From: Caldibacillus thermoamylovorans
Lineage (GTDB): Bacteria > Bacillota > Bacilli > Bacillales > Caldibacillaceae
Assembly: GCF_000751775.1 (NCBI RefSeq)
Contig: NZ_CCRF01000045.1
Coordinates: forward strand, 1 to 64,000
Length of the DNA: 64,000 bases
Direction of reading: 5' to 3'
The notes under the pieces are model-generated. The model was not told the DNA's origin, did no database searches, and saw nothing but the letters and a program-made list of their open reading frames with translations. Shown here one piece after another: positions 436-45,751 of the stretch (positions within the stretch are counted from its first letter, which is position 1; each line of letters opens with the position of its first letter). The translations under genes and the position numbers were made by a program.

Positions 436-1851
436 ATGCCAATAAAGCATAAAACGAGATCGTTATTTATCATTATTTTAAGTTTAATCATCATTATACT
501 AGCCGCCTTCCAATGGACAAAATTGAAAGAAGGAACGGATCAAGACGATCATTTATCAGTCAAACAGCAAATTGAAATTGTTCATGATTCCGGGAAATTA
601 AAGATTAAACAGACCCTTCAAAATTTGAAAAACCATACTTATTTACTAAAATTACCTGAAGCAGGAGTTAATTTCACATTCCCGCATATGGAATTTTGGG
701 ATGAAACAAATAAAAGTATAGCTGTTCGGGATAACACTTTGACCGTTGAATATGAAATTAACACGAATCCGGATAATCAAGCTTTTTTGTTGGAAAATTG
801 GATGGTACAAATAAGTGGTGTAGAAATAGTTAACACGATCGTGAAAATTAGTGAGCTGACAAATATGGCTGGAAGTTGGGCTGCGGGTGCACCAATGACT
901 TATCATGAAGTACTTGATCAACTACAATATTATGTATTTGAAAGAAAAGGTGTTGATATTCCATTATATTGGCAAAAAGCACCGTTATTCTATACTTACA
1001 TAGGAGAAAAGATTCCTTTATATACAGATAGAAAAACTGATCAAAATCTATTGACCAGTTCAATTGACTTAGGATTAAAGCATGATAAGGAGTTTCCCGC
1101 TGTTATTTTAACGGAGCAAATAAATCCACTACAGTCTGTCTCATTAATTATTGAAAATCCTGAGATTGATCAAAACTTATTATCTTCCATATGGGTGGAA
1201 CAATTTTTGTTATCAAATTTTTGGGCAGGTAAGGATGAGGAAAAATGGGTGATGAATATTTTGGCTAAAATCATAACTGAACAACCACCGATTGATGAAG
1301 TGAAAGCACAAATTTATGCTGAACTTAAAAATAAATTGTCGAACAATGAAATTTCTATATTTATCTCATCCATTCTTCAAACCGATCAAAAGTTCACTTC
1401 TTTAGCTGAAATTGATCAATTATTAGGACGATTGAAGGGGCTAAAAACAAGCTTTTTTCAGGATATTGCAATTGAACAAACAGTGAGTCCTTTATATTTT
1501 TTTACTGATGAACCGATTTATGTGAGAAATCACAAGTTGGAGAATTATCGCGTGTATTGGATGGACGATGTTTATTATTTTCCAATTCGGCCAATCATAG
1601 AAAATTTAAATTATCAATTTGAACAGATATCTGAAGATGAAATTTTTATAACCAATGGGAAAACGACATTTCGTTTTTATGATAATAAAGACTTTTTTCT
1701 AATAAATGAGGAACAATATGGTTTGCTGACAATGAGCGATAAATTACCGTATCTAAAAATCAACAATGAATTTTATATACAAAAAGAGTTTTTTCGTAAA
1801 GTCTTTCGTATTGAAATCAATCATCAGAATAACCAATTTTTTATAAGGTAA
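436..1851 (+). CDS. Membrane-anchored protein with C-terminal stalk-like (copper amine oxidase N-like) domain
   Basis: This 471-residue protein has one N-terminal membrane segment (about residues 9-27) after a short basic tail, so most of it should lie outside the membrane. The middle part (about 35-360) matches no family I recognise. The last 105 residues alternate short hydrophobic strands with polar turns (YYFPIRPIIENLNYQFE, then ITNGKTTFRFYDN, then FYIQKEFF). That is the pattern of the stalk or copper amine oxidase N-like domain found in many Bacillus exported proteins. The ATG follows a GGGGGAT site by 5 bases. No promoter is visible between it and the upstream repeat. A mini-element starts one base after the stop. 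Function is unknown; the stalk call is by pattern only. Confidence 0.75.
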   Translation: MPIKHKTRSLFIIILSLIIIILAAFQWTKLKEGTDQDDHLSVKQQIEIVHDSGKLKIKQTLQNLKNHTYLLKLPEAGVNFTFPHMEFWDETNKSIAVRDNTLTVEYEINTNPDNQAFLLENWMVQISGVEIVNTIVKISELTNMAGSWAAGAPMTYHEVLDQLQYYVFERKGVDIPLYWQKAPLFYTYIGEKIPLYTDRKTDQNLLTSSIDLGLKHDKEFPAVILTEQINPLQSVSLIIENPEIDQNLLSSIWVEQFLLSNFWAGKDEEKWVMNILAKIITEQPPIDEVKAQIYAELKNKLSNNEISIFISSILQTDQKFTSLAEIDQLLGRLKGLKTSFFQDIAIEQTVSPLYFFTDEPIYVRNHKLENYRVYWMDDVYYFPIRPIIENLNYQFEQISEDEIFITNGKTTFRFYDNKDFFLINEEQYGLLTMSDKLPYLKINNEFYIQKEFFRKVFRIEINHQNNQFFIR

Positions 1852-1958: not shown

Positions 1959-1959
1959 T

Positions 1960-2107
1960 AAAAAATAACCCTGCAGTAAACTTCTGCAGGGCTCCTTCAA
2001 ACTCTTCGTGAGTGAAGGCAAAGGGAGAGGAGAAACCGGAGGAAGAACTTATGGGGAAACGTAAGTCTTCTCCGCGGTTGGCAACAACATCTAACGTTTG
2101 ATGTTGT
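1960..2107 (-). ncRNA. csfG: Probable CsfG sporulation small RNA
   Basis: The intergenic region upstream of rsmD encodes a compact minus-strand RNA of about 148 nt. Read in that direction it has a 5' stem (arms ACAACATC and GATGTTGT), a central stem (2035-2081, outer arms AACCG and CGGTT), a C-rich single-stranded run (TTTCTCCTCTCCCTTTG), a third stem (1994-2018) and a terminator. The terminator has arms CCCTGCAG and CTGCAGGG (1969-1991) followed by TTATTTTTT. B. subtilis CsfG lies next to ylbH (rsmD) and is controlled by sigma-F and sigma-G, and the promoter here fits both. The C-rich loops suggest pairing with Shine-Dalgarno sequences, which is inference. I identify it by position, promoter and structure, not by alignment. 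Confidence 0.72.
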
Positions 2108-2113
2108 CATTTA

Positions 2114-2142
2114 CATTATGACCAAAATAGGATAACTTATAC
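2114..2142 (-). promoter_or_regulatory. Sigma-F/sigma-G promoter of csfG
   Basis: On the minus strand, GTATA (2138-2142) lies 14 bases upstream of GGTCATAATG (2114-2123). The first matches the sigma-F/G -35 element. The second fits the sigma-F -10 pattern at nine of ten positions, and its CATAATG part fits sigma-G. A start site about 7 bases on gives an RNA beginning near 2107. The sigG promoter at 34382-34410 has the same spacing. Confidence 0.65.
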
Positions 2143-2294: not shown

Positions 2295-3352
<1,058 letters not shown>

Positions 3353-39284: not shown

Positions 39285-39321
39285 TCCTTATATCCATAAA
39301 ATATTCTCATATTATTTACAA

Positions 39322-39570
39322 ACAATGAAGGGGACAGTACAATTTTTCTGCTTTTATCCAGCGAGTCGAGGATGGTGGAAGCTCGATTAAAAAGGGAAAT
39401 TGGAAAATCACCCCGGAGTTCCTGCTCTGAAATTGAATAGTAAGGGTGGGCGTGTTTCACGTTATAAAATGAGCGGACAAAGAACGTCTTTTCTCTTTGT
39501 CTATTTGGGTGGTACCGCGGGAAAGCTTTCTCGTCCCATATACAGGGATGTGAAGGCTTTTTTATTTTAC
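39322..39570 (+). promoter_or_regulatory. T-box riboswitch, isoleucine specific
   Basis: The leader has the stem I segments GGACAGTACA and GGATGGTGGAAGCTCG and a specifier codon ATC (isoleucine) at 39407-39409 inside GGAAAATCACCCC. It also has the T-box TGGGTGGTACCGCG at 39506-39519, whose centre pairs with the tRNA acceptor end. A competing terminator follows, with an arm starting AAGCTTTCTCGTCCC near 39524 and its partner ending GGCTT, then TTTTTT by 39570. Uncharged tRNA-Ile should stabilise the antiterminator and raise ileS expression. Confidence 0.95.
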
Positions 39571-44882: not shown

Positions 44883-44911
44883 CATAACAGAACTGAATAG
44901 CACCTTTAAAT

Positions 44912-44996
44912 CAGTCCAGAGAGTCTGAGAAGGGAACGGATTATTTTTTAAAAAAGAAACAGTTTATTCTCCTGCCCTCTTTGGCAGGAGTTTTTT
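44912..44996 (+). promoter_or_regulatory. PyrR-controlled attenuator 1 (pyr leader)
   Basis: CAGTCCAGAGAGTCTG (44912-44927) is the PyrR binding loop of the anti-antiterminator. It is followed by a terminator with arms CTCCTGCC (44969-44976) and GGCAGGAG (44983-44990) and a T-tract. UMP-bound PyrR should favour termination before pyrR. Confidence 0.93.
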
Positions 44997-45032
44997 ATTG
45001 AAACGGAAATGGATCACGCGAATGTTCCATAA

Positions 45033-45590
<558 letters not shown>

Positions 45591-45611
45591 AAAGATTGCC
45601 CTTTTAACAGA

Positions 45612-45730
45612 CAGTCCAGAGAGGCTGGAAAGGGGAAGGCTGAGTGTCAGTCGGAAGTAGAACCTGCTTCAGGCTGTGAATGCAACGCTACTCATTTACC
45701 TCTTTCCATATACTGGAAAGAGGTTTTTTT
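45612..45730 (+). promoter_or_regulatory. PyrR-controlled attenuator 2 (pyrR-pyrB gap)
   Basis: CAGTCCAGAGAGGCTG (45612-45627) is a second PyrR binding loop. The terminator has arms CCTCTTTCC (45699-45707) and GGAAAGAGG (45715-45723), then seven T residues. B. subtilis has pyrP plus a third attenuator here; both are missing. Confidence 0.93.
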
Positions 45731-45751
45731 ATACTAAATGTTTCTTAATGA

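Follow-up and report, generated by a model that had tools for sequence, protein, structure and literature searches.

Upstream of rsmD in Caldibacillus thermoamylovorans lies a structured element that Rfam describes as a cis-acting leader of that gene on the plus strand, and that the original prediction took for CsfG, a sporulation small RNA read from the minus strand. Which strand carries the functional element, is it CsfG, and what might its product do? The DNA analysed (the window) comprises positions 1–64,000 of contig NZ_CCRF01000045.1 (GCF_000751775.1). The predicted arrangement of GTATA, a 14-base spacer and GGTCATAATG, followed by a structured C-rich RNA of about 148 nt with a strong terminator next to rsmD, was located in full on the minus strand (2142–1959). 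The predicted RNA has three hairpins together with a C-rich linker of 18 nt and ends in an intrinsic terminator. The features, with the evidence for each, are as follows.

2138–2142, minus strand: GTATA, the −35-like box of a sigma-F/sigma-G-type promoter (conservation in 74 loci)
2124–2137, minus strand: promoter spacer, 14 bases
2114–2123, minus strand: GGTCATAATG, the −10-like box (conservation in 74 loci)
1959–2108 (both ends inferred), minus strand: CsfG small RNA gene, with the RNA at about 2108–1961 (RF00516 on the opposite strand; model R1)
2083–2108, minus strand: helix 1, 2108–2100 with 2091–2083 (fold and covariation)
2037–2074, minus strand: helix 2, 2074–2062 with 2051–2037, loop CGUUUCCCCA at 2061–2052 (covariation)
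2033–2045, minus strand: CUUCCUCCGGUUU, a 13-nt complement of the 16S rRNA in two Bacillales records (3 of 3000 dinucleotide shuffles reach 13 nt)
2023–2035, minus strand: UUUCUCCUCUCCC, in the C-rich linker (identity across core-bearing loci)
1994–2018, minus strand: helix 3, CCUUC 2018–2014 with GAAGG 1998–1994 (fold and covariation)
1959–1993, minus strand: CsfG intrinsic terminator, hairpin 1993–1967 plus T run (fold and covariation)
2295–2864, plus strand: rsmD (ylbH), 16S rRNA methyltransferase (PF03602, 193 bits)
2864–3352, plus strand: coaD (PF01467, 88 bits)
436–1851, plus strand: gene for a protein with a C-terminal stalk-type domain, convergent with CsfG (PF07833, residues 377–466, 25.3 bits versus a cut-off of 24.2)

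The promoter end of CsfG faces rsmD, and the order rsmD–coaD matches that annotated in a Bacillus velezensis record. The stalk-domain gene lies on the far side, as had been predicted; the arrangement is not peculiar to this genome. PF07833 homologues (∼ 17–31% identity) occur in many other CsfG loci, which makes the protein a conserved neighbour, and also in some loci without CsfG. A scan for named relatives of the stalk-domain protein returned none. A second terminator-like hairpin (1882–1859, minus strand) is found between CsfG and this gene.

Conservation was assessed in two alignments. A1 contains 74 loci of the window's own order (73 distinct sequences) taken from the better-scoring matches, and leans to conserved copies; A2 holds 44 members that have diverged further (40 of the class, four of the order) that were aligned to the model, and leans to that model. 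Across the 74 loci, 55 alignment columns show no change. The G, A, T and A of GTATA never vary and the remaining T is present in 70 of 74; in the GGTCATAATG box the two Gs are found in 68 and 69 loci, A2119 in all 74 and A2117 in 73. A strict promoter pattern is matched by 58/77 order loci (0.4% of shuffles) and 17/40 class loci (1.3%). At the level of sequence, the conserved boxes bear out the claim of a sigma-F/sigma-G-type promoter, and we infer from them that the Caldibacillus copy is probably under dual sigma-F/sigma-G control.

Covariation supports the four-helix structure. In A1, 97.7% of the cells are paired, 16 of the 37 pairs show double changes, and the covariation score (0.162 versus 0.090 after shuffling) was equalled in none of 500 shuffles. 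In A2, double changes reach 28 of 37 pairs, with a covariation score of 0.429 versus 0.142; slid versions of the structure score 0.094 or less. Double changes are seen in six of ten helix 1 pairs in A1 and in all ten in A2. Helix 2 is largely frozen in A1 (12/13 pairs invariant) and has double changes at 4/13 pairs in A2, and the terminator has them in eight of nine pairs in A1.

Folding energy alone cannot fix the strand, because both strands fold about equally well: the minus strand at −51.1 kcal/mol (z = −5.6) and the plus strand at −56.6 kcal/mol (z = −5.2), with 0/200 shuffles as good in either case. Read on the minus strand, pairs contain 154 G-U versus 29 A-C cells in A1 and 111 versus 18 in A2. 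The first pair alone supplies 62 (A1) and 30 (A2) of the G-U cells, without which the counts are 92 versus at most 29 and 81 versus at most 18. Since the roles of G-U and A-C would swap on the plus strand, this excess favours the minus strand, where the strongest terminator and T run also lie. In 113 of 117 order and class loci, all of which pair CsfG with a neighbouring rsmD, CsfG is antisense to and upstream of rsmD (in one case 530 nt away). In the other four it has the same direction as rsmD (L035 and L067 belong to one family, L260 and L261 to a second), and GTATA and the −10-like box, judged by eye, travel with the RNA. A fifth inverted unit, L374, lies outside the class and brings the total to 5/149 loci. 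An element that can be inverted together with its promoter and terminator is an independent gene and not a leader of rsmD; in the window, CsfG likewise forms an apparent antisense unit of its own upstream of rsmD and not a structured leader on the sense strand.

The plus-strand cis-acting ylbH leader stated by RF00516 is thus very unlikely. That family was built on the plus strand and matches at 103 bits, the plus strand folds well too, and two weak sigma-A-like matches are found on it, at roughly shuffle level. Against this stand the G-U changes, the position of the terminator, the inverted units and a B. subtilis northern blot in which the ylbH-leader element was silent on the annotated strand and strong on the reverse strand, and was proposed to be CsfG (PMC3574147). 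We give almost no credence to a plus-strand small protein (MGKRKSSPR...), for which a GGAGG followed after eight bases by an ATG inside the conserved core would speak, and reject it because its frame ends are scattered, after 9 to 70 residues across 74 loci, and the frame is unconserved beyond the core.

Is the RNA CsfG? RF00516 (‘ylbH leader’) is the sole Rfam match over its cut-off at this locus (release 15; plus strand, 1959–2077). R1, a full-length minus-strand model built from A1, scores the copy at 147 bits (2110–1956), the copy itself belonging to the training set of R1. The comparison with a covariance model that was proposed in the original prediction comes out in favour of CsfG, at 103 bits versus a cut-off of 50, though the family models the opposite strand. 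Together with the reverse-strand RNA of B. subtilis (PMC3574147), the minus-strand covariation, the promoter-like boxes, the synteny and the co-occurrence with SigG (see below), this makes it almost certain that the RNA in the window is CsfG, encoded opposite to its Rfam entry. B. subtilis CsfG (S547; Marchais et al., 2011) shares the position beside rsmD, the strand and the C-rich regions. The far side differs: B. subtilis has ylbG where Caldibacillus has the stalk-domain gene, and in a B. velezensis record the CsfG motif sits between YlbG and RsmD. The window copy is an ordinary, well-conserved CsfG. Its interest arises from the comparison with its relatives: the public family stands on the wrong strand, some units are inverted, whole clades have lost the RNA, one natural copy is reduced, and short forms lie beside rsmD outside the class.

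CsfG is described as controlled by sigma-F and sigma-G in sporulation, restricted to the forespore and endowed with three C-rich regions (PMC8216469, PMC9147052, PMC4409812). Expression outside sporulation, in anaerobic growth, on glucose exhaustion and perhaps under oxidative stress, is also described (PMC8216469, PMC4409812), and disruption of such sRNAs is reported to cause no obvious defect in sporulation (PMC9147052). We compared the distribution of CsfG with that of SigG. RF00516 matched 362 of 397 order genomes at E ≤ 1e-3, 358 of them over its cut-off; 15 of the 35 matchless genomes were recognised by their absence from the match list. Fifteen genomes with best TIGR02850 matches of 1e-39 to 1e-35 were taken as lacking SigG, the 381 others having matches at ≤ 1e-133 (by the model's own cut-off 368 are over and 13 of the 381 under; G001, 80% complete, was set aside). 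CsfG was found in 361/381 genomes with SigG versus at most 1/15 without (a marginal match in G253, E = 3.1e-4), a co-occurrence with a Fisher p of ∼ 1e-15 among genomes of one order, which are not independent. SigG and CsfG scores also fall together (Spearman 0.45; 47 order families, one genome each), but as each model may be biased towards Bacillus, the correlation may only reflect distance from that genus and we build nothing on it.

The 20 genomes that have SigG and no RF00516 match belong to two genera, g44 (12) and g90 (8), and in 19 of them nothing core-like was found within 900 nt upstream of rsmD. A reduced copy in G045 (L115, 1279–1387, minus strand; 22.2 bits) has GTATA-like and −10-like boxes, GGTTTCTCCTCTCCC and a terminator and neither 5′ helix; 11 other sampled genomes of its genus are without CsfG beside rsmD. 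Across 36 genomes without a clear RF00516 match, R1 scores reached at most 31.5 bits, and the linker was present in one of 30 opened loci, the reduced copy of G045. A low score is no proof of absence, because true copies outside the class score only 23 to 38 bits. Among 80 named rsmD loci (a set that overlaps the loci above), CsfG lies antisense upstream in 68. The 12 without it are from Domibacillus (three), Lysinibacillus (four), Paenisporosarcina, Planococcus, Exiguobacterium, Kurthia and a metagenome assembly; in these 12 genomes R1 scored at most 27 bits anywhere, and the linker was found in 0/12 opened loci.

Beyond the order, R1 (whose E-values are rough) matched 188 of 299 genomes sampled from the class, including 26 that belong to the order. 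In a sample of 249 genomes from the phylum it matched 49 at E ≤ 1e-3; 43 of these fall outside the class, with scores of only 23 to 38 bits. Forty of these 43 matches were opened (G782, G699 and G815 were left out). The core is present in 34, of which 32 adjoin rsmD (31 antisense, one sense); none of the six coreless matches does. As rsmD is not part of R1, its adjacency supports these matches independently; the core gives no such support, because R1 itself selects for it. The linker and the adjacency to rsmD thus extend past the window's own class. RF00516, which covers the identical locus and sequence, differs in modelling the opposite strand and in lacking the 5′ helix, and its cut-off recovers one and loses 17 of 18 tested members of these 34 core-bearing loci: the public family is on the wrong strand and too narrow.

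The forms outside the class are without helix 1. In 16/34 an upstream GAAGAG- or GGAAG-like stretch could cover CUCUUCC (4.8% of shuffles), and a promoter-like pattern is found in 13/34 (4.4% of shuffles), which leaves some of them without an evident promoter. Counted over all core-bearing loci, rsmD adjoins CsfG in 149/151; such near-constant adjacency, even of inverted units, suggests that the neighbourhood is kept, rather than that transcription is shared. Among the papers searched, none places CsfG outside the Bacilli; the wider distribution may already be published and is not claimed as new. The CsfG motif had no exact match in virus contigs and none in phages at E 0.01, and among plasmids it was found in one B. 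velezensis record of 807 kb.

What might the RNA do? UUUCUCCUCUCCC is identical in 77/77 order loci, 40/40 class loci and 34/34 core-bearing loci outside the class (151/151), all chosen with models or motifs that contain it. It is retained in the reduced copy of G045, which has lost both 5′ helices. The short out-of-class forms and this reduced copy point to UUUCUCCUCUCCC as the working part of the RNA. We suggest that CsfG would be transcribed in the forespore as this develops, starting at a sigma-F/sigma-G-type promoter of its own on the strand opposite rsmD and stopping at a terminator of its own. Two unpaired parts, UUUCUCCUCUCCC and the helix 2 loop with UUUCCCC, would then most likely bind to mRNAs at G-rich Shine-Dalgarno regions and keep these mRNAs from being translated during spore maturation, in the manner of C-rich RNAs such as RoxS. 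For this picture the transcription unit, its strand and structure, the conserved element and the co-occurrence with SigG are drawn from the genome comparison, sigma-F/sigma-G control and expression from papers on B. subtilis; the Shine-Dalgarno pairing and its effect on translation would follow by analogy. We hold the identity as CsfG and this mechanism jointly with moderate confidence; counting against them are the target searches described below, the 20 SigG genomes that have no RF00516 match, the expression described outside sporulation and the reported lack of an obvious sporulation defect on disruption.

A C-rich region of RoxS has been shown to be key for its binding to ppnKB mRNA at the ribosome-binding site, and CsfG is named among the C-rich RNAs (PMC4409812). 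RoxS/RsaE and FsrA likewise have C-rich regions, predicted to be single-stranded, with which they can reach ribosome-binding sites (PMC8216469, PMC4409812). They differ from CsfG in their regulators (ResDE and Fur) and in that RoxS and FsrA have known targets. For CsfG, two papers report no identified mRNA target (PMC8216469, PMC9147052), though the introduction of a 2025 paper counts it with the RNAs that regulate sporulation mRNAs (PMC12456014). The earlier proposal that the C-rich loops find their targets at ribosome sites is thus plausible by analogy with RoxS, but the searches run here gave no conserved target. A Shine-Dalgarno–ATG–GGGAAA pattern run over eight genomes picked up csfG itself along with a scatter of isolated sites. 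A 14-base complement of the linker (G-U allowed) occurred 182 times in 49 genomes, including ∼ 40 csfG copies, versus 138 for the reversed pattern, which is no excess, and among 20 examined loci other than csfG that carry the linker complement no gene recurs. One match led to ctsR, which was followed in 30 loci, with a start found in 19. Its linker pairing (−16.7 versus −11.5 kcal/mol for 256 background start regions) is inseparable from Shine-Dalgarno strength, because that also exceeds background (−15.9 versus −12.1 kcal/mol).

Access to the linker is a further consideration. The C-rich single-stranded parts and the terminator are present in the predicted fold of the window copy, and the former are partly paired in the folds of many relatives. 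With flanks, at least 12 of the 13 linker bases are free in the minimum free energy folds of 8/74 order and 1/40 class loci (means 10.5 and 7.5). Such folds would speak against easy access, though they include flanks from outside the RNA. The widely conserved 13-letter pyrimidine stretch and the place beside rsmD make the search for a CsfG partner more concrete.

Shine-Dalgarno pairing has to be weighed against other partners. An unlikely one, though the strongest of these contenders, is a putative forespore RNA-binding protein for which the conserved core would be the binding site, CsfG acting through binding or titration of that protein. A linker that stays unchanged across many families and the Hfq association reported for B. 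subtilis CsfG (PMC3574147) are consistent with such a partner, but an hfq mutant reduces CsfG only modestly (PMC3574147). More doubtful still is a broader reading in which CsfG is an ancestral forespore RNA that predates the split of the classes within the phylum, is tied to rsmD and has as its partner the translation apparatus, whether 16S rRNA or Shine-Dalgarno sequences generally, and not a few mRNAs. If true, CsfG would damp translation across the whole maturing spore.

Pairing with 16S rRNA in place of mRNAs is improbable and the weaker alternative to Shine-Dalgarno pairing. CUUCCUCCGGUUU is exactly complementary to AAACCGGAGGAAG in the 16S rRNA of Bacillales (Mesobacillus and Paenibacillus records), and more pairing is possible at UCCCC; the best duplex, at −42.6 kcal/mol, is equalled in 3/200 shuffles, and the near-constant neighbour rsmD encodes a 16S rRNA methylase. 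The match was, however, a post hoc observation. The 13-mer stays intact in only 74/77, 34/40 and 26/34 loci (order, class and outside), versus 151/151 for the linker, with which it has only UUU in common; in the out-of-class loci L371, L382, L391, L397, L398, L404 and L405, CCGG is replaced by CCAG, CCAA or CCG. The Paenibacillus 16S rRNA examined (one record) is standard, though it need not represent the class members with altered 13-mers, and the linker complement was not found in the two 10-kb rRNA loci examined. The stretch of 16S rRNA complementary to CUUCCUCCGGUUU is paired in the mature subunit, which also counts against this pairing.

Two further observations concern the window at large. 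Its first 460 nt contain direct repeats of 46 nt (217–262 and 279–324, 91%) as well as shorter repeats. Over Rfam cut-offs elsewhere in the window are a T-box leader (39316–39541) and PyrR binding sites (44899–44999 and 45596–45733).
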